A DNA stretch of 42,745 nt from contig JAUVZX010000006.1 of NCBI GenBank assembly GCA_030602345.1, forward strand, positions 1-42,745. Reading direction: 5' to 3'. Positions 23,148 through 32,611 of this stretch are shown here, one piece after another; within the stretch, counting starts at the first letter, position 1, and every line of letters starts with the position of its first letter. The DNA comes from Bacilli bacterium. Lineage in GTDB: Bacteria; Bacillota_I; Bacilli_A; RF39; UBA660. Under the pieces are notes generated by a model that made no database searches, had not been told where the DNA came from, and saw only the letters and a list, made by a program, of their open reading frames with translations. The translations under genes were made by a program, and so were the position numbers.

Positions 23148-23170
23148 AAAAACGGACTTTAACCGTTTTT
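23148..23170 (-). terminator. Terminator after the HExxH protein
   Basis: Minus-strand AAAAACGG/CCGTTTTT, 8-bp stem, 7-base loop, trailing T residues; the stop codon overlaps the 5' arm. Confidence 0.85.
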
Positions 23171-25751
23171 ATTTTTTCATAGTTTGACTATATTTTTGTT
23201 TGGATTCTAAAGTATTAAGAATAACTTTTTTATCCTCAAGAAATAATTGATACATAAGTTCTAAATGTTTAAAAGGTTTTTTTCTTAGAGCTTCATTTAT
23301 AACTCTTGAATCTAGAAATGCTTCAATACTTTCTAAATCATTAATTATTTTAGGAGTTATTGCGTCTAGATAGCCATTAGTGTGGTGCCTATTTATTTCA
23401 AAAATATAATTTCTCTTTAAAACTTGTCTGAATAACTTTATGACTTCAGAGAGATCTTGTTGATCATCAAAAGGAATAATTGCTATTGATTTTAAATCTG
23501 AAGGGATATCTTCAATTGATATACTTCTAAATTTCATAACTTTTAAATAACTAGCTTTAATTTTTTCATCATCTGAAGTTTTGTATTCTTTATATATTTC
23601 TCCAGTTTGTCTTCTTCTCCCATCTTCTCTATATTCCATTCTTAAAATTGGATAATCATTTAGTAAAGCGGGGTTATTAACTACTTCATCTTCCAACAAT
23701 AAATCTAACGGAGAAACATAATTATTCTCTTTATTTACTCCATCTTTTCTATTTAAAGTGGACTTTAAATTATTGTCTTTCGCGATATCATTAGCAAGTT
23801 CTTGTTCAAACTCTTCGCTTAATAAGTTAGGTGCAACATCTTTCAAAAATCTTTTTAAGTAAATATTGCCAGCTAATCTTGCGTCAATTTCTGGAACATA
23901 TATCTTATAATTCTCTTCATAATAATTTTTACCGTATTTTCTTCTTAAAACTTTATCTTTTGTCCATTGTAAAACGGAATAATTAATTTCTCCAGTTTTA
24001 ATTTTGTGTTCTTGAACAGCATGGCGCATTTCATGAAAAACAGTTCTCAAAGCATAAGCTGCCTCTTTACCCCTACCTTTAATTACCATCTTATCAATAA
24101 CAAGAACTGATCCCGAGGCAGTTGGAATGTGCTGCCCTTTTGCTGATTCTAAGTCACCAAATGCACACTTAACGCTTATTCCTTTTTTAGCTAAAAACTT
24201 CTCCGCCATAGCTTTAATATATGTTTTTAATATATGTTCATTAGTAATGTTTATGGTCTCATTTAGAAAGCAAGCAAAAAAAGATCTTATTACTTTTAAA
24301 TCAATATTATTTTCATTTGAAGACAAAAACATAAACATTATATTATATTCTTCAGAAGTATATTTATTAGGTTTTTTAGGATCTAATGATTTTTGAATTG
24401 CCAATACTTTCTCTTTATATTGCATTCTTTCTAAAGCATCGCTAACCAATTTTTTAGATTCTAAATTAGAAAATTCTTTTTTATCGTAAGTATTAAATAT
24501 TTCATAAACTGTAGCTATTGTTTTGTTTTTATTAAAGGTATTAGTAATATGCTCCAAACAATTTACTAACCATTTGATTTCACTTTCTGTCAATTTTTTC
24601 TTTTCGAAGCACAAACTATCAGTATACTTAGAAATCATATGTAAGTAGTGACCACTATTATTATTTTCGCCGAAAAAGGCATGATTTGACTTGAAGTTTA
24701 TAAACTTAGCATAAACTTCCTTATCAGTGAATATCTGTTTAACTATATTTTCAATGAAATCATAATCTATTTTTATTTCCTTTTTGGTGCCGTCAACTTC
24801 ATAATATTTAATTAAATTTTTATTTTTTTGAAGCATTTCTTCAAATCTCTTTACAGATAATAACTTATCTTTAACCAGATTAAAAATTACATCTATATCA
24901 TGAACTTTACCTTTTATTTTTCTAAGATTTCCAAAGGCATTTTTACCTTGATACATTTTCTTAAATTCATCTAGTTTGTCGGGAGAAAACTCTTTCAAAA
25001 AATTAGTCATGAATCTGACAGATTCATTGCATAAATGAATAATGGGTGTTGTTGCCATGTAATTTTCTAAATAATATTCATAATCACTACAAGTAACTGC
25101 ATTCAAAACTGCTCTTTCCTTTGCTGCATTCTCACTAAGAACTGTGTTTTTATCGCGATATAACTCATTTAATAATAGGCTATATCCTAATAACGGTTTC
25201 CTATCGATTATTTTTAAAAATGAAGGACTGAATACCATCGTTTGTGTTTCTTTAGAATAATCTAAAATTTCCATAGCTGAATCATTTAATATAAAATTGG
25301 TTACAGGAAAATCGCTACCAACAAACAAAGAAACATATTTCAACATTTCTGCGGCTATCAATTTTAAATTTTCATTTAATATTTGATTAGTCATTATATC
25401 TTCAAAAGATATAGCGTCTAAAGTAGTCTCTACTTCTTTATATTCTTCTTCAGTTATATTTAATTTCCCAACTTCATAAAAGAGATCAAATTTATACAAT
25501 AAGTTAGGATTTTCCAAAGCAAAATCATATAAATATATATTTATAAAATTTATTAGCCATTGGGTTTTTATTTTGTCAGATTCTTTTTTTAGATCATCTA
25601 CTATTTTATTAGAATAATTTAAAAATGCTTCATGATAATCTTCTTTTGTATATTTAAAGATATCTTTATGCATTCCATCATAAAAAAATTCATCCCATTT
25701 TTTAGAAGTTTCTTTGTCCGTAAATATTTGTTTTATTAATTCTAAATCCAT
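23169..25751 (-). CDS. Large protein with HExxH zinc-protease motif, unknown family
   Basis: 860 residues, no signal peptide and no membrane segment, so probably cytoplasmic. Residues 1-560 are largely helical, lysine/asparagine-rich and resemble nothing I recognise. Then FHEMRHAVQE (H573, E574, H577) gives a zincin motif, with E621 (PEIDARLAG) 44 residues later as a possible third zinc ligand, the gluzincin arrangement. About 240 further residues follow without recognised motifs. The ATG is close to a TGAGGA site. It has its own promoter and terminator, so it is a single-gene unit. A metallopeptidase is inferred from the motif; substrate and role are unknown. Confidence 0.8.
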   Translation of the reverse strand: MDLELIKQIFTDKETSKKWDEFFYDGMHKDIFKYTKEDYHEAFLNYSNKIVDDLKKESDKIKTQWLINFINIYLYDFALENPNLLYKFDLFYEVGKLNITEEEYKEVETTLDAISFEDIMTNQILNENLKLIAAEMLKYVSLFVGSDFPVTNFILNDSAMEILDYSKETQTMVFSPSFLKIIDRKPLLGYSLLLNELYRDKNTVLSENAAKERAVLNAVTCSDYEYYLENYMATTPIIHLCNESVRFMTNFLKEFSPDKLDEFKKMYQGKNAFGNLRKIKGKVHDIDVIFNLVKDKLLSVKRFEEMLQKNKNLIKYYEVDGTKKEIKIDYDFIENIVKQIFTDKEVYAKFINFKSNHAFFGENNNSGHYLHMISKYTDSLCFEKKKLTESEIKWLVNCLEHITNTFNKNKTIATVYEIFNTYDKKEFSNLESKKLVSDALERMQYKEKVLAIQKSLDPKKPNKYTSEEYNIMFMFLSSNENNIDLKVIRSFFACFLNETINITNEHILKTYIKAMAEKFLAKKGISVKCAFGDLESAKGQHIPTASGSVLVIDKMVIKGRGKEAAYALRTVFHEMRHAVQEHKIKTGEINYSVLQWTKDKVLRRKYGKNYYEENYKIYVPEIDARLAGNIYLKRFLKDVAPNLLSEEFEQELANDIAKDNNLKSTLNRKDGVNKENNYVSPLDLLLEDEVVNNPALLNDYPILRMEYREDGRRRQTGEIYKEYKTSDDEKIKASYLKVMKFRSISIEDIPSDLKSIAIIPFDDQQDLSEVIKLFRQVLKRNYIFEINRHHTNGYLDAITPKIINDLESIEAFLDSRVINEALRKKPFKHLELMYQLFLEDKKVILNTLESKQKYSQTMKK

Positions 25752-25768: not shown

Positions 25769-25797
25769 ATTATAACATTATTATTGTTTTACAACAA
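25769..25797 (-). promoter_or_regulatory. Promoter of the HExxH protein
   Basis: Minus-strand TTGTTG (25797-25792), 17-bp spacer, TATAAT (25774-25769), overlapping the last codons of the Spo0A-like gene. Confidence 0.65.
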
Positions 25798-26427
25798 ATT
25801 AATGTTATTCTTTTCTTCGATAATTTGATTTTTTAAAAATTTTAAATACATATAATTACTTGGTCTGTCTTTTGAAAAAGTATAGTATGTATCTTGTTTA
25901 ACTTTTAGGTTAGAATAAGTATTTTCAATAGAGTGCCTTATACTTCTTTCGACACACTTAATATTAGTGCTGTGTTTCTCGGCAATCAAAGGGTATATTT
26001 CTTTAGTAACGTGTTTAACATCTTCATTTATCATAATGTGAAGAGCTGTTTTAATATATGTATATCCTAATAATTTGTTACTAAAGCCTGCCTTTAATAA
26101 AGTACTATCAATCACTTTTTCATAAGAATACATTGAAAGCTTAGAAATAATATCATCATTTTTAGAAATTGTTTTTATTTGAGGATGATTAAATTTTTGG
26201 TCACAGTCATTTAAAATGATAATTGTTGATTTCAGATTTTTTATTACTATATCTCTTAATATCTTTTTTCTCATCACAATTTTATGATCGATTATAATAT
26301 AGTTATAAATATTTTTATTTTTTATAAAAGATTTCCAAGAAGTAAATATGTCAATATCCATGTGTGGATGTTTAAATAAAGTTTTTCTAATTAATTTGCA
26401 TTTAGTTATTACTGCGTTTTTATACAT
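25789..26427 (-). CDS. Spo0A-like transcription regulator with degenerate receiver
   Basis: 212 residues from ATG 26427. The C-terminal half matches the Spo0A DNA-binding domain: LLKAGFSNKLLGYTYIKTAL, then EIYPLIAEKHSTN, and the recognition helix CVERSIRHSIE. The N-terminal ~105 residues have the length and alternating hydrophobic strands of a receiver (YIIIDHKI, STIIILNDCD) but lack the acidic pair at the first strand, so aspartate phosphorylation is doubtful. No clear ribosome site precedes this ATG; a TTG at 26448 is in frame inside the hairpin. It lies downstream of tpiA behind a terminator-like stem. Targets are unknown. Confidence 0.8.
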   Translation of the reverse strand: MYKNAVITKCKLIRKTLFKHPHMDIDIFTSWKSFIKNKNIYNYIIIDHKIVMRKKILRDIVIKNLKSTIIILNDCDQKFNHPQIKTISKNDDIISKLSMYSYEKVIDSTLLKAGFSNKLLGYTYIKTALHIMINEDVKHVTKEIYPLIAEKHSTNIKCVERSIRHSIENTYSNLKVKQDTYYTFSKDRPSNYMYLKFLKNQIIEEKNNINLL

Positions 26428-26451
26428 AAAAAAGTTGTCATTTGACAACTT
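26428..26451 (-). terminator. Terminator-like hairpin between tpiA and the Spo0A-like gene
   Basis: Minus-strand AAGTTGTCA-aa-TGACAACTT followed by TTTTTT, ending one base before the ATG of the next gene. The tpiA stop codon (TGA) is in the stem. It should end most transcripts or act as an attenuator or as a translation block for the next gene. Confidence 0.7.
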
Positions 26452-27136
26452 CTAGTAATTTAATCGCTTTATTTATGTCTGCAGAGGCCTTACCAATTAG
26501 AAAACCATCTATGTATGATGAAATAGATAATTCTTTAATACTATTTTCATCAACACTTCCACCATATAAAACTTTTACTTCTTTTTGCTTTTTATCAAAA
26601 AAATATTTTTTAATTACTTTAATTCTTTGCTCTATTTTTTTTCTTGATAAAATCTTTCCTGTTCCAATTGAATATACAGGTTCGTAAGCAATTACAATGT
26701 TGTCATTCACAATATTTTTGAATATTTTTTTTAATTGATACATTATCAAAAATTCACTAAAAATATTGTCTTTCTTATCACCAACACAGACTATCGCTTT
26801 TGCTCCTTTTTCCTCAATCAGTTTTAATTTTTTATTTATTATATTTAATTTTTCACCATGGTGTTTAACTCTTTCACTATGACCTATAATATAATTTTTC
26901 ACTCCTAGACCATATAGTTTAGATAAAGAAATTTCTCCAGTATCTGCTTCTTGATTAGTGGATGAAAAGTTTTGAGCACCAATATTTAAATCACTCTTTA
27001 AAAAGGTGTTTAATTCTATGAAATCAGGGCATATAATTAAATTATCATTATTATATTCTTTTATTTTTTCGATATATAAACTAGTATTTTTATTATCTAA
27101 ATAAATCTTATGATTAAATACTATTAATTTTTCCAT
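26438..27136 (-). CDS. tpiA: Triosephosphate isomerase (divergent, short)
   Basis: 232 residues, about 20 shorter than usual. Interconverts DHAP and glyceraldehyde 3-phosphate. Catalytic residues are kept: K10 (FNHK, usually NWK), H86 (IIGHSER) and E152 (AYEPVYSIGTG), and the phosphate-binding YGGSV near 200. The start ATG follows AAAGGGGATT. It overlaps the glycosyltransferase end by 23 bp. Several positions that are otherwise near-invariant are changed (NHK, PVYSIG), but no active-site residue is missing. Confidence 0.93.
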   Translation of the reverse strand: MEKLIVFNHKIYLDNKNTSLYIEKIKEYNNDNLIICPDFIELNTFLKSDLNIGAQNFSSTNQEADTGEISLSKLYGLGVKNYIIGHSERVKHHGEKLNIINKKLKLIEEKGAKAIVCVGDKKDNIFSEFLIMYQLKKIFKNIVNDNIVIAYEPVYSIGTGKILSRKKIEQRIKVIKKYFFDKKQKEVKVLYGGSVDENSIKELSISSYIDGFLIGKASADINKAIKLLEVVK

Positions 27137-28361
27137 TTTTAATCCCCTTTTTTATTTCTTTTATTATTCTTTTCATAATGCCTTTTGTTTTTCCTTTTTT
27201 AATTATTGCTTGCTTATATACATCAATAACTCTAGTTGCAAATACTCTTGAAGAATATTCAATTGCTGTTACTTTACCATTTTCAACTATTTGATTATAT
27301 AGTTCTTCATTTTCGATTAATAAAGATACTTTTTCAAAATATTGTTTAACGTTTTTAAAAATTAATCCATTTTCCATATCTTTTATGACCGTTTTAAAAT
27401 TCTCATCATCAATGCATAAAACAGGTTTTTGGGCTGCCATAGCTTCGATAACCGTTAATCCTTGGGTCTCACTTAATGATGCCGTTACAAAGGCATCACA
27501 AGATTGATAATATAGACCTATTTTTTCGAATAATACTCTTCCTGTAAAAATAATATTATTTTCTAATTTCTTTTTAATTACTTCTTTTTTATATTTTTCT
27601 AGTTCAGGTCCATCTCCTACTATAAGTAATACTATAGAAGGATATTTTTTAATTAATTTAGAATGATTTTTTAGTAAAAAATCAATGTTTTTTTCTTTAG
27701 CAATTCTACCCACAAAAAGTAGAGTAAATTTATCTTTTATATTAAGTTCTTCTTTTAATTCATCAATTTCACTTTGTTTATATTTCTTTGGAATAAAACG
27801 ATCTATTTCAATACCTGTTGGTACAATATGAATATTTTTTGTATATTTATATTTTTCTTTAAATAAACGATAAGTTTTCAAAGAAGGAACAATTAATTCG
27901 TCTGCTGTTTTATCACAGTAAAAATTAGTTAAATATTCTACTAATTTTGTTCCTGGTTTTTTGAAATAATTCCCTGTTATATAGTGAATATAATCTTCAT
28001 ACATCGTATGATAAGTATGAACTAATGGAATATCAAATTGTTTAGCAAATAATCTAGCAAAAGTTCCTACTCCAAACTCCGTATGGGAATGAATAACATC
28101 TAAATCCCATTTTCTAACTTTATTTATTATTCTTATAGGATATATCGATGTTAAACGATAATCATATATACCTGTTGGTATTCCTGGCATTTTTAAAATT
28201 TTATTTTCTTCGTCATATGAATATGACAATAAATTATCATTAACTGATACTACATATACTTCGTGACCTTTCTTTTCTAAGGCTCTTTTTAACATTAATA
28301 CACTTGTAGATACTCCATTTATAAACGGAGGATAAGTATCTGAGAATAATCCTATTTTCAT
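27114..28361 (-). CDS. GT4-family glycosyltransferase, probable diacylglycerol glucosyltransferase
   Basis: 415 residues, GT-B fold. The N-terminus FSDTYPPFINGVSTSV and the HSHTEFGVGTFARLFAK and YHTMYEDYIHYI regions resemble the Acholeplasma alpha-monoglucosyl-diacylglycerol synthase. The GT4 donor-site E-x7-E pattern is ETQGLTVIE. It would act at the inner face of the membrane, making the glycolipid that anchors lipoteichoic acid or balances the bilayer. A very basic C-terminal tail (KGKTKGIMKRIIKEIKKGIK) fits membrane binding. It is one base downstream of the flippase-like gene. Confidence 0.88.
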   Translation of the reverse strand: MKIGLFSDTYPPFINGVSTSVLMLKRALEKKGHEVYVVSVNDNLLSYSYDEENKILKMPGIPTGIYDYRLTSIYPIRIINKVRKWDLDVIHSHTEFGVGTFARLFAKQFDIPLVHTYHTMYEDYIHYITGNYFKKPGTKLVEYLTNFYCDKTADELIVPSLKTYRLFKEKYKYTKNIHIVPTGIEIDRFIPKKYKQSEIDELKEELNIKDKFTLLFVGRIAKEKNIDFLLKNHSKLIKKYPSIVLLIVGDGPELEKYKKEVIKKKLENNIIFTGRVLFEKIGLYYQSCDAFVTASLSETQGLTVIEAMAAQKPVLCIDDENFKTVIKDMENGLIFKNVKQYFEKVSLLIENEELYNQIVENGKVTAIEYSSRVFATRVIDVYKQAIIKKGKTKGIMKRIIKEIKKGIKNGKINSI

Positions 28362-28362
28362 T

Positions 28363-29361
28363 TTATCTTCCTCTTTTCACAAAATAATAAGATCCAATAA
28401 TTAATCCAAAGTGGTATGTTACAAATCTCCACATTAACATAACTGTGTTTAGAAGTGGCCCTTTTAAATATTTACTAAAGAAATTAATAAATGCAAATTC
28501 CACTCCTCCAGTAGCTCCCGGAACTGGAATAAATGAACCTACTAATTGAATATATGTTGCAATCACAATAGTGTTAATTGCTGTAAATGATGAATAATCA
28601 TATAAAGCAAACAAAATAATCATCGGAATCAAATGATGAATAACCATCGATAAAATATTTATTAAAATGAGACTGATAAATGTTTTTTTATCCTCAAAAA
28701 GAAGCATTGCACCATCATGGAATCGATTAACTTTACTTCCCCATTTATCAATCGTTTTTTGCTTATCTTTAACGAATTTTAAGTGATTTAATAGAATAAT
28801 AAGTTTTTTAGAAATATATTGATTTAGTCTTCTGGCAAACGCTATTGAGAATAAAACAAAGATTACTAAAGAATTTACTACAAAACCTAACACAACTAAC
28901 TTTTTAAGCAAGTTATTATGGTCTATTACATGAAATATATTGTTATATATAACTGCGAATATTCCTAATATTATAAGAGCTATTTGATAAGTTATAAAAT
29001 CTTGAATAACTATATTTGCACTGTCGGAAGTTGATAATCCTTCTTTTTTCAAAGTCAATATTACTAATGGTTGTCCCCCGGTAGCAAAAGGTGTTATAGC
29101 GTTAAAAAATTGTGTTAACATAATTAATTTAAAAGATTTTTTCAAACTATAACAAGCAGTGTATTTAGCAATTATTTTGTTATATATATAAGCTTTTAAA
29201 AACCAATATATAAGCATCATAATAAGTGCAATAAATATATAAAAATAGTTTGATCCAATTATAAAATCAATTATTTCAAAGAAGTTTTCTCTTAAAGTAA
29301 AATATAACACCAAAAAAGAAAATATAAATAATATAGCAAGGTTTAGTTTATTGTTTTTCAT
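28363..29361 (-). CDS. Flippase-like membrane protein (UPF0104/YbhN, LPG-synthase TM type)
   Basis: 332 residues with about eight membrane segments. The family pattern is seen in AITPFATGGQPLVILTLKKEG (first half) and PVPGATGGVEFAFINFF (second half). The family includes the membrane part of MprF and is thought to move or handle lipid-linked molecules. Its position next to a glycolipid synthase suggests movement or use of glycolipid, which is inference. It overlaps the pgk stop by 14 bp. Confidence 0.88.
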   Translation of the reverse strand: MKNNKLNLAILFIFSFLVLYFTLRENFFEIIDFIIGSNYFYIFIALIMMLIYWFLKAYIYNKIIAKYTACYSLKKSFKLIMLTQFFNAITPFATGGQPLVILTLKKEGLSTSDSANIVIQDFITYQIALIILGIFAVIYNNIFHVIDHNNLLKKLVVLGFVVNSLVIFVLFSIAFARRLNQYISKKLIILLNHLKFVKDKQKTIDKWGSKVNRFHDGAMLLFEDKKTFISLILINILSMVIHHLIPMIILFALYDYSSFTAINTIVIATYIQLVGSFIPVPGATGGVEFAFINFFSKYLKGPLLNTVMLMWRFVTYHFGLIIGSYYFVKRGR

Positions 29362-30496
29362 TTAATATTACATCTATACCTGGCATGTCAGAACCTTCCA
29401 ACATTTCAAGTGATGCTCCCCCTCCCGTTGAGACATGAGAAAATTTACTCTCAAGTCCAAACTTTTTGGCAGCAGCAGCACTATCACCACCACCTATAAC
29501 ACTGATAGATTGCGAATTAGATATTGATTTTAGAATGTCCTTAGTTCCTTTTGAAAATTGTTCTTTTTCAAATACTCCCATTGGTCCATTCATGAAAATT
29601 ATACTAGATCTATTGATATATTCTTCAAATAAATTTACTGTCTTATACCCAATATCAAATATGCTTAATCCTTCATCAATATTTTCTATATCACATTGAA
29701 TTATTTCTTCACTATCAATATTTGAAGCACAAATGACATCGACAGGTAATATTATTTTTTTATTATATTCTTTAATTAAAGTAGCAGCATAATCGATATA
29801 ATCTATTTCATACATAGATTCTCGTATATCATATCCTTTGGCTTTTAGAAAAGTGTTAGCCATAGCGCCACCAATTAAAATATAATCAGCTTTTTTCAGT
29901 AAATTTTCTATTAACTTAATTTTGTCACTTACTTTTGCTCCGCCCATGACAATTGTATATGGTCTTGATTCTATTTTGTTTAATTTTGATAAAAACTCTA
30001 TTTCTTTTTCAACAAGAAAACCAAACATACTAGGTAAAATTTTAGCTATACCAACATTGGAAGCGTGTGCTCTATGGGAAGTTCCAAATGCATCATTTAT
30101 AAAAACATCTCCCATAGCAGCCCAATATTTAGATAGATCAACATTATTAGAGCTTTCTTTCTTGCCTTCTAAATCTTCCCACCTAGTATTTTCCAAAAGA
30201 AGAATATCTTCATCATTAGATAATTTTATAAATGCTATTTTATCTTTATAAATAGTTTTCAAATATTCAAAAACTGGCAACAAAGTATTTTTTTGTTTAT
30301 CTTCTTCAGTTTTAACTCTTCCTAAATGAGAAAGTAAAATAATCTTTCCACCTTTAGATAAAACAAAATTTATTGTTTCTAAACTCTTATCGATTCTAGA
30401 TGTATCAGTTATAGTACCATTTTTAATCGGTACATTAAAATCTACTCTTATGATAACCTTTTTATTTTTAAAATCATATTCCCTTATATTTAACAT
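29348..30496 (-). CDS. pgk: Phosphoglycerate kinase
   Basis: 382 residues, slightly short. Makes ATP and 3-phosphoglycerate from 1,3-bisphosphoglycerate. Motifs: RVDFNVPIKNG, LLSHLGR, FINDAFGTSHRAH, GGAKVSDKI, IGGGDSAAA and STGGGASLE. The start is ATG 30496, two bases after the stop of the pilin-like gene (TAAAATG); the in-frame extension upstream runs through that gene and is not real. Translation is likely coupled to the pilin-like gene. GXGXG-like nucleotide binding features are intact. Confidence 0.96.
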   Translation of the reverse strand: MLNIREYDFKNKKVIIRVDFNVPIKNGTITDTSRIDKSLETINFVLSKGGKIILLSHLGRVKTEEDKQKNTLLPVFEYLKTIYKDKIAFIKLSNDEDILLLENTRWEDLEGKKESSNNVDLSKYWAAMGDVFINDAFGTSHRAHASNVGIAKILPSMFGFLVEKEIEFLSKLNKIESRPYTIVMGGAKVSDKIKLIENLLKKADYILIGGAMANTFLKAKGYDIRESMYEIDYIDYAATLIKEYNKKIILPVDVICASNIDSEEIIQCDIENIDEGLSIFDIGYKTVNLFEEYINRSSIIFMNGPMGVFEKEQFSKGTKDILKSISNSQSISVIGGGDSAAAAKKFGLESKFSHVSTGGGASLEMLEGSDMPGIDVILNEKQ

Positions 30497-30497
30497 T

Positions 30498-31532
30498 TTA
30501 TCTATGCCTTTCAATATCAATTTGATAATTAGCACTTATTTGTGAACTATTAAGTGCTACATTATATGCCCTTACTGAATATAAATCCATGCTTGCTAAC
30601 CAAGCATTATCACTCCAAGCGTTACCAATTGTTCTAATAGCCATTTGAGCATTTGCCACATTATTTGTTCCAGACAATACTCCATTTACATATAAATCTA
30701 CTTTTGCTCCATTAGAAACAAAAGATAATGTTCTTCTAGAACCACTTATCGAAGCAGAGGTAACACCAAGTGAATGATAGGTGTTAACAGGATAACTATA
30801 CGAAACATTTCCATTGTGTCTTAATAATATTTTACCGAATGCTCCAGAATTGTCAGAAGTACCTACTAAGAATTCAAATGTTTTACTTTGATTAGTATAA
30901 TTTAAATGAAATTCTAAAGTCCAAACTGTTGATAAGTTTATATTATTATCTAATTCTAGACGATCATTAGTTCCATCAAATCTTAAATACCCATTATTAA
31001 ACCCACTAGAGGCATTATTATTGAAATTGATTAATCGCGAACTTCTTCTAAATGCGGTTAAATCATTGAATAAATTAGAATTAGGATTATATCCTATTCC
31101 AAAATTTATTCTTGAATCATAGTGCATAACTAACCCAGTCTGCACATAATTCTTAATATCGGTATTTCTTTCTTCCAGAATATAAGAAATAGTTCCATCC
31201 GCTTGCTTTGTTGCTACCACTGTATCTGTTGGAGAAACTAAAGATCCAGTATAAGGGTTTTCTCCAAGTTTTCTAATATAGTTTTCTTCTAATAACAATC
31301 TTATTGGTATATCTACTCTTCCGTTGGTAGCACTCAAAAGACCAAATGCATCAATATTGGTCTCTATATATATTTCTGAAGCAGCATACAAAGAAGCTAT
31401 ATAAGCTTCTGCTTCCTTTAATTTGGCATTTTTATACGAATTAATTGTTGCAGGAACAGCAACTAACATAATTACTCCTAATATGACAATAATTCCTAAT
31501 AATTCTACTAATGTAAATGCTTTTTTCTTCAT
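30498..31532 (-). CDS. Type IV pilin-like protein with LamG/concanavalin-like domain
   Basis: 344 residues. Starts MKKKAFTLVELL, a prepilin leader with Ala instead of Gly at -1 and the conserved Glu at +5, followed by a hydrophobic helix (about 6-28) and a charged amphipathic helix (KNAKLKEAEAYI). Residues about 130-340 look like a LamG jelly-roll: GLVMHYDSRINFG, YLRFDGTNDRLELD, WTLEFHLNY, VDLYVNGVLSGT, and YSVRAYNVALNSSQI. It should sit at the cell surface or in a pseudopilus and bind glycans or another ligand. ATG 31532 follows AAGGTG. It is the first gene of a pgk-flippase-GT4-tpiA operon, and no pilus assembly genes are nearby. Confidence 0.87.
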   Translation of the reverse strand: MKKKAFTLVELLGIIVILGVIMLVAVPATINSYKNAKLKEAEAYIASLYAASEIYIETNIDAFGLLSATNGRVDIPIRLLLEENYIRKLGENPYTGSLVSPTDTVVATKQADGTISYILEERNTDIKNYVQTGLVMHYDSRINFGIGYNPNSNLFNDLTAFRRSSRLINFNNNASSGFNNGYLRFDGTNDRLELDNNINLSTVWTLEFHLNYTNQSKTFEFLVGTSDNSGAFGKILLRHNGNVSYSYPVNTYHSLGVTSASISGSRRTLSFVSNGAKVDLYVNGVLSGTNNVANAQMAIRTIGNAWSDNAWLASMDLYSVRAYNVALNSSQISANYQIDIERHR

Positions 31533-31556
31533 TTTCAACACCTTACTATCAATATA

Positions 31557-31585
31557 ATTTTATCTTATTTATGACTTTTTTACAA
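31557..31585 (-). promoter_or_regulatory. Promoter of the pilin-like/pgk/tpiA operon
   Basis: Minus-strand TTGTAA (31585-31580), 17-bp spacer, TAAAAT (31562-31557), immediately after the gap terminator. Confidence 0.7.
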
Positions 31586-31591
31586 GAAAAG

Positions 31592-31612
31592 AAAAAAGGA
31601 AGATTACTTCCT
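31592..31612 (-). terminator. Terminator after gap
   Basis: Minus-strand AGGAAG-TAAT-CTTCCT followed by TTTTTC. The loop begins with the gap stop codon TAA. Confidence 0.8.
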
Positions 31613-32611
31613 CAATTCAAATAACTTAATTGCTGTTCTAACCATCTGAGCACTGTAGCCCATTTCATTGTCGTACCAACCAACAACTTTGACTAATTGT
31701 TTACCATCGACATCTAATACTGTGGTTAATAATCCATCCACTAAACATCCAAGTTTGCTTCCAATTATATCACTAGATACTATAGGATCTTCAGTATATT
31801 TAATTGATTCATTTTGATTATTTCTAAATAATTTATTTATTTCTTCTTCAGTAACACTTTTATTTAGTTCTACTGTTAAATCTACTACTGAACCAGTTGT
31901 AGTTGGAACTCTTAATGCGCTTCCGTCAAGTTTTCCTTTTAATGAAGGTAAAACTAATCCAATTGCACTCGCTGCTCCTGTAGAAGAAGGAACTATATTC
32001 GCTGCTCCAGCTCTACCCCTTCTTGATTCAATACCTTTGGGATGAGAAACATCTAAAATAGTTTGATCATTTGTATAAGCATGTACAGTTGTCATGAAAC
32101 CTTTTACTATTCCGTATTCTTTTTCTAATAAATGAACCATAGGTGCTAGACAATTAGTTGTACAACTAGCTGCACTTACTATCTTTTCTGTTCCATCGAG
32201 AACGTCATCATTTACGTTATACACAATTGTTTTAACGTTTCCTTTTGCAGGAGCTGAAATAATAACTTGTTTTGCTCCAGCATTGATATGGTAACCAGCT
32301 TTTTCTTCAGTAGTAAAAATACCACTGCATTCAAACACTTGATCTATGCCTAACTCTTTCCAAGGTAAATTATTTGGATCTTTTTCAGCAAAAATTTTAA
32401 TTTTTTTACCTTCTACTTCAATATAGTCATCACCATGAGTTATATTCTTTTCATATAGTCTATGACTAGTATCATATTTCAATAAATACGCTAACTGTTT
32501 TGCATCAGTTAAATCATTAATTGCTACTATTTCAAATTTTGGATTATCTTGCATTAGTCGAAAAACTAATCTTCCTATTCTTCCAAATCCGTTTATTGCT
32601 ACTTTTATCAT
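31604..32611 (-). CDS. gap: Glyceraldehyde-3-phosphate dehydrogenase (glycolytic)
   Basis: 335 residues. NAD-dependent oxidation and phosphorylation of glyceraldehyde 3-phosphate. NAD fold INGFGRIGR, the NAD-selecting NDLTD, the catalytic SAASCTTNC (Cys near residue 152) and partner histidine (TTVHAYTNDQ), RAGAANIVPSSTGAA, and WYDNEMGYS are intact. ATG 32611 follows GGGAGGT; the six-codon upstream extension has no site. It overlaps neither gene but lies 4 bp from the nucleoside kinase stop, so the two are one operon. Confidence 0.98.
   Translation of the reverse strand: MIKVAINGFGRIGRLVFRLMQDNPKFEIVAINDLTDAKQLAYLLKYDTSHRLYEKNITHGDDYIEVEGKKIKIFAEKDPNNLPWKELGIDQVFECSGIFTTEEKAGYHINAGAKQVIISAPAKGNVKTIVYNVNDDVLDGTEKIVSAASCTTNCLAPMVHLLEKEYGIVKGFMTTVHAYTNDQTILDVSHPKGIESRRGRAGAANIVPSSTGAASAIGLVLPSLKGKLDGSALRVPTTTGSVVDLTVELNKSVTEEEINKLFRNNQNESIKYTEDPIVSSDIIGSKLGCLVDGLLTTVLDVDGKQLVKVVGWYDNEMGYSAQMVRTAIKLFELRK

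Follow-up and report, generated by a model that had tools for sequence, protein, structure and literature searches.

A gene on the minus strand (30498..31532) of the window, by which we mean the whole 42,745-nucleotide stretch of Bacilli DNA that was analysed, is best read from its sequence as encoding a modular type IV pilin, a known kind of protein, and lies directly before pgk, the gene for phosphoglycerate kinase, a position that pilin genes also occupy in related genomes. The explanation that we favour, and that we hold to be probable though well short of certain, is that this pilin would display a lectin module at the tip or surface of a filament, would be made together with Pgk, and would owe its position to selection while its C-terminal passenger is exchangeable. 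The features that point to this explanation are a leader motif, a LamG profile match, genes for pilus assembly, conservation of the linkage, a pattern of promoters and terminators, and purifying selection.

The gene begins with an ATG and specifies 344 amino acids, to which we assign, from the sequence, a class III leader (residues 1–5), a pilin module (residue 6 to about residue 127) and a LamG module (approximately residues 128–344). Specifically, the 344-residue translation opens with MKKKAFTLVELLGIIVILGVIMLVAVP, a class III prepilin leader, and the leader with Glu at +5 that a preliminary description of this DNA had pointed out is read from the open reading frame as MKKKA/FTLVELL. The leader peptide MKKKA (31518..31532, minus strand) places Ala at −1 and Glu at +5 of a predicted cut before Phe6, around which the sequence reads MKKKA/FTLVELLGIIVILGVIMLVAVP, with Glu5 of the mature end in the hydrophobic helix; F6, T7, E10 and L11 are invariant in an alignment of ten orthologues (alignment A2). 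The match of the window pilin to the Pfam model N_methyl (E 3e-4, 20.7 bits) is slightly below the cut-off of 21.2 bits, and most orthologues exceed the curated cut-offs for N_methyl and for Laminin_G_3. An alternative in-frame GTG start is present 9 nt upstream of the ATG; we favour the ATG because the sequence AAGGTG (31539..31544, minus strand) suits it as a ribosome-binding site, and AGGTGA-type sites precede most pilins. Sites of the AGGTGAT type near the ATG are common to pilin genes (e.g. L017, L018, L019 and L024).

The C-terminal part of the protein matches Laminin_G_3 (PF13385) over residues 186–333 (30534..30977, minus strand; Pfam E 6.9e-8, 33.2 bits against a cut-off of 27.6), so that the fusion of a pilin with a LamG domain noticed earlier is upheld by one match near its cut-off and another above it. 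When a profile made from the ten orthologues (profile A2) was compared with the PDB, it matched a solved LamG-type domain, 4qvs_A, over profile positions 135–330 (E 1.9e-13), whereas sialidase lectin domains were matched weakly and the first 60 positions matched pilins. The assignment of a LamG fold is based on these profile matches because AlphaFold, used on the single sequence without an alignment, gave low-confidence models: the full protein had a mean pLDDT of 36, with a helix at residues 8–50 and pLDDT below 50 from residue 37, and the LamG part alone consisted mainly of strands with a mean pLDDT of 32.

The layout of the window protein is reminiscent of a characterised pilin from Streptococcus sanguinis. 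The minor pilin PilC of that organism is modular and combines an Ig-like module with a ConA-like lectin module (Shahin 2023, PMC9934059); its lectin binds sialylated and sulfated glycans on a glycan array and has been modelled at the pilus tip (PMC9934059). Both proteins have a class III leader, a pilin module, a C-terminal module of the ConA/LamG class and a monoderm host; unlike PilC, which is encoded in the pil locus and carries an Ig-like module, the window pilin is encoded in a pgk operon and has no recognised Ig module. By analogy with PilC, the window protein would display a glycan-binding module, and its LamG (ConA-like) module most likely binds carbohydrate. The two are not treated here as orthologues, since the profile A2 search revealed no sequence homology beyond the leader, and PilC was not among the 28 PDB sequences that this profile matched at E 0.1.

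The window is contig C9 (27.8% G+C) of an assembly of 760,795 bases in 11 contigs that is 98.8% complete. The preliminary description had stated that no pilus assembly genes are near the pilin, which is true locally; the pilus is not missing, however, as a search of the genome for a prepilin peptidase and PilB/PilC-type genes recovered all three on contig C10, which encodes PilB (T2SSE, 420 bits), a PilD-type peptidase, a PilC-type platform protein and two pilin-like genes. A lack of pilus machinery is thereby ruled out. A PilC-type platform protein (L015:11885-14149), whose T2SSF domains begin at residue 416, has an N-terminal extension of 400 residues with repeated hydrophobic segments. Within genome stretches around pilin and machinery genes, at least 11 further open reading frames have the leader motif, nine of them 282–925 amino acids long, and the passengers of these other pilins include Ig-like, RCC1-like and LamG modules and one with a weak FGE-sulfatase-like match (large modular pilins with such passengers lie at L018:5943-7487, L019:7673-9985, L023:9275-11179, L016:7442-10033, L017:10516-12126 and L022:12157-14931). 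Two RCC1-like pilins of this genome are near-copies in the pilin module. Because the genome contains PilB, PilC and PilD together with these further pilin-like proteins, we read the window protein as one member of a family of modular type IV pilins for which the assembly machine is present. A PilB-type ATPase was also found in the 36 sampled relatives of the same GTDB family, and PilD in 28 of 28 genomes with the linked pilin.

These machinery genes do not separate an adhesive pilus from an enzyme-exporting, type II secretion-like piston, since PilB, PilC and PilD are common to both systems, and the linked pilin might therefore be a pseudopilin of such a piston. GspG is among the best curated N-terminal matches (E 8e-7, far below its cut-off), but the ComGC score nearly equals the GspG score, and the C-terminal LamG module, being bulky, is better suited to display than to the body of a piston. 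Bacilli are monoderm, which we also count against the pseudopilin, and we consider it very improbable. We suggest instead, for a pilus, that the prepilin peptidase would cut the window pilin after Ala5, that the N-terminal helix would then join a filament built by PilB and PilC, and that the LamG module, displayed at the filament tip or surface, would bind carbohydrate, like the ConA module of S. sanguinis PilC.

In the window the pilin is followed on the minus strand by pgk (29348..30496; Pfam; the only copy in the genome), a gene for a flippase-like LPG_synthase_TM protein (PF03706; 28363..29361; Pfam and NCBIfam matches), a GT4 glycosyltransferase gene (27114..28361), whose best equivalog is alpha-monoglucosyldiacylglycerol synthase (264 bits, below the cut-off of 400), and tpiA, encoding triosephosphate isomerase (26438..27136; TIM match), and thus the three genes named earlier as lying downstream of pgk were all matched. 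A single base separates the pilin stop from the pgk ATG (30496), and there are overlaps between pgk and the flippase gene and between the glycosyltransferase gene and tpiA, at the end of which a terminator-like hairpin with a T run (26430..26453, minus strand; hairpin scan) likely marks the end of the unit. Upstream lies gap, the gene for glyceraldehyde-3-phosphate dehydrogenase (31604..32611, minus strand; Pfam), which belongs to a separate unit and ends in a terminator-like hairpin of its own (31596..31613, minus strand; hairpin scan). The promoter that had been proposed ahead of the pilin was found by a promoter scan as TTGTAA-17-TAAAAT (31557..31585, minus strand). Chance promoter sites are common in the window's 28% GC DNA (100 found, 84.5 expected), and we find this one credible because such sites recur ahead of orthologous pilins in other genera. 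The one-base spacing, the gap terminator and the promoter pattern together bear out the placing of the pilin as first gene with pgk next. Glycolytic operons of the gap-pgk-tpiA type occur in Bacilli, and gap, pgk and tpiA are likewise in line in the window; unlike such operons, the window has a pilin gene before pgk, a terminator after gap, and genes for a glycolipid-type flippase and a glycosyltransferase between pgk and tpiA.

To see how widely the arrangement is shared, we took 120 pgk regions: 116 from within the GTDB family, comprising 36 chosen across genera and 80 with the most similar pgk, and four that represent other families in the class. The window brought the number of scored family loci to 117, of which 110 had a readable upstream side and seven ended at a contig edge; pilins were detected with an HMM built from seven linked pilins and counted if directly upstream of pgk on the same strand. 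A pilin occupied this position in 62 of the 110 readable family loci, from 35 genera, whereas the seven other positions around pgk (−3, −2 and +1 to +5) held 15 pilins in 722 places. The sample of 80, having been chosen by pgk similarity, is biased towards close relatives. In samples not picked in this way the linkage occurs in only roughly one locus in four or five: 6 of the 33 readable loci of the genus-spread sample (7 if G001 is included, in which the pilin lies behind the gene gap at a contig break), and 16 of the 69 loci of an independent named collection, in which a pilin was looked for within 900 nt before pgk. No pilin was linked to pgk in the four regions taken from outside the family. 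Since at least 35 genera share the arrangement, it did not arise by accident in this genome alone, and the possibility of a chance insertion found only here, which the preliminary description had named as its refutation, is ruled out. Moreover, pilin and pgk stay joined even though the neighbouring gene changes, since the gene above the linked pilin is gap in 28 of the 62 loci, another gene in 30 and a contig end in 4. Most pilin-pgk spacings range from an overlap of about 26 nt to a gap of about 27 nt. Pilin genes occur as a tandem pair immediately ahead of pgk in three loci (L154, L196 and L217), where one of the two carries a long passenger and the other is bare.

Signals for transcription are distributed around the linked pilin in a consistent manner. 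A hairpin followed by T residues lies between gap and the pilin in 23 of 28 gap-pilin-pgk loci when AT-rich stems are allowed (2.3 expected by shuffling), and in 10 of 28 under a strict G+C-rich definition of a terminator (0.05 expected). A promoter pattern consisting of a TTG(A/T) hexamer, 16–19 bases and a TA(N)(A/C)AT hexamer was present upstream of the linked pilin in 34 of 61 loci (2.7 expected). In pilin-bearing loci the 130 nt before pgk contained it in 4 of 62 (1.7 expected), none of the four having tight spacing, and in loci lacking a pilin it preceded pgk in 14 of 47 (2.2 expected). The enrichment over shuffles is descriptive, because the pattern was written after these sequences had been viewed; the contrast between the pilin position and the pgk position is the stronger point. 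This pattern fits a pilin placed so as to separate pgk from the pgk promoter, pgk then being dependent on the promoter of the pilin. Pilin and pgk are on the same strand, at short spacing, with neither a terminator nor a promoter between them, and are conserved together in relatives. Thus the gap hairpin, the conserved promoter before the pilin and its lack before pgk suggest that the pilin heads a transcription unit of its own with pgk, and the comparative sequence, taken alone, lends support to the co-expression that had been proposed. We envisage that the pilin would be the first cistron of a pilin-pgk-flippase-glycosyltransferase-tpiA transcript arising from the promoter just upstream of it, and that its supply would therefore follow that of an essential glycolytic enzyme. 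A bolder version, in which the arrangement is a selected device whereby the supply of the pilin and of its glycan-binding module rises and falls with sugar-burning capacity under the glycolysis-glycolipid promoter, with passengers swapped as cartridges in one place, we offer tentatively and regard as rather unlikely.

The same promoter counts can be accounted for by a frozen arrangement without any coupling of adhesion to glycolysis: a single ancestral insertion of a pilin between the pgk promoter and pgk would suffice, after which the pilin would not easily be lost because its loss would harm pgk expression. We take this as a serious rival and a possible account, if not the one we think probable. 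Linked pilins that are free of a passenger or lack the cleavage motif persist, as it would predict, and a constitutively supplied pilin requires no sensing of sugar. Against it, the pgk tree calls for repeated gains or losses of the linkage, with 18 changes needed for the loci without a pilin, although the tree is too weakly supported for gains and losses to be counted. Pilin loss seems possible given these repeated changes, yet the gene is often retained and its dN/dS is low. In the explanation that we favour, the position beside pgk would be inherited in the family and maintained by selection, with a benefit from the linkage itself, while the passenger is swapped or lost.

Linked pilins resemble each other across loci more than unlinked pilins do. 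Specifically, when each of 144 different pilin modules was assigned its best match (below 65% identity and from another locus), 119 of these matches fell within the module's own class, linked or unlinked, a number reached in none of 5000 permutations. Between close pairs, dN/dS was 0.05–0.31 for bare linked pilins with an intact motif, compared with 0.03–0.18 for pgk, and these ratios indicate that the linked pilin is under purifying selection. Passengers had a higher dN/dS than their own pilin module in five of six pairs (not all of them independent), with values of up to 0.67. The passengers on linked pilins (none, LamG, DUF6273 or Glug) differ even inside one genus: in g66 the pilin of G297 carries LamG whereas those of G068, G202 and G366 carry DUF6273-type passengers, on pilin modules 43–46% identical, and in g82 and g110 a bare and a LamG-bearing pilin occupy the same place (G112 has a small open reading frame between pilin and pgk). 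Altogether, 8 genera have linked orthologues with the PF13385 module; most linked pilins at the family pgk loci are without a lectin module, and no LamG-type linked pilin was among the loci returned by a related-locus search. The claim that a surface adhesin is linked with pgk therefore holds for the pilin and not for the adhesin module; what is linked is the pilin, since a lectin module is altogether missing from many orthologues.

In four species of the genus g3 (L093:6544-6909, L219, L227 and L208) and in G134 (L170), the linked gene lacks the prepilin FTL.E cleavage motif, and its product retains a membrane helix and an outer domain. PilD is present in all five of these genomes, and PilB in G002, the only one of the five searched for it. 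Since the motif has been lost while PilD persists, filament assembly is not needed for the retention of the linked gene, which in g3 and G134 can be kept for a non-filament reason or can be slowly decaying; dN/dS within the genus is 0.15–0.45 for the motif-less genes. Such proteins, together with the dN/dS of 0.15 for the pair G273/G347 and the short spacing between pilin and pgk, could mean that the linked gene encodes a membrane-anchored surface protein outside the pilus, or serves as a leader cistron that sets pgk translation by coupling. We judge this improbable, however, as the FTL.E motif, PilD and PilB are retained in nearly all the other genera and pgk in the window genome (G000) has a ribosome-binding site of its own (AAGG, 30510-30507).

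We know of no earlier case in which passengers are exchanged between genera while the locus stays fixed. Literature searches on RF39 with type IV pili, on prepilin with pgk and on prepilin with LamG yielded no description of a pilin-pgk linkage. Modular pilins have been surveyed broadly, with more than 1200 proteins in 264 architectures and PF13385 among the 15 most frequent (Raynaud 2021, PMC8179133); the N_methyl plus PF13385 architecture of the window protein is already catalogued there, and in the parts of that survey consulted we found no mention of linkage to glycolysis. The type of protein is thus known, and a conserved pilin with an exchangeable passenger as first gene of a pgk unit appears to be undescribed. 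The family is large and consists of uncultured gut Bacilli with small genomes, for which we found no description of how they attach; the named relatives to which the glycosyltransferase led were MAGs of uncultured Bacilli, Tenericutes and Erysipelotrichaceae, and many of them came from animal gut. The window genome has about a dozen pilins, mostly large and modular, one of which is encoded at the head of an operon that includes the gene for an essential glycolytic enzyme. This locus, conserved as it is, may allow joint expression of surface display and central metabolism to be tested, and its passenger changes between species may serve as a natural series for finding the host or food glycans bound by each.

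Several further features of these loci were observed. In L202:5048-7240 (G200) pgk and the flippase gene are fused in one frame of 730 amino acids, with the pgk match at 4-390 and the flippase match at 407-721. Directly after tpiA the window encodes a Spo0A_C protein (25789-26448) whose receiver part is poorly recognisable; a Spo0A-like gene lies 3′ of tpiA in most family loci, and in L149, L160, L157, L158, L175, L200, L192 and L203 a further pilin gene follows it at the far end of the locus. The window also encodes, at 23169-25751, an 860-amino-acid protein that has no Pfam match and contains FHEMRHAVQEH, an HExxH-type motif.
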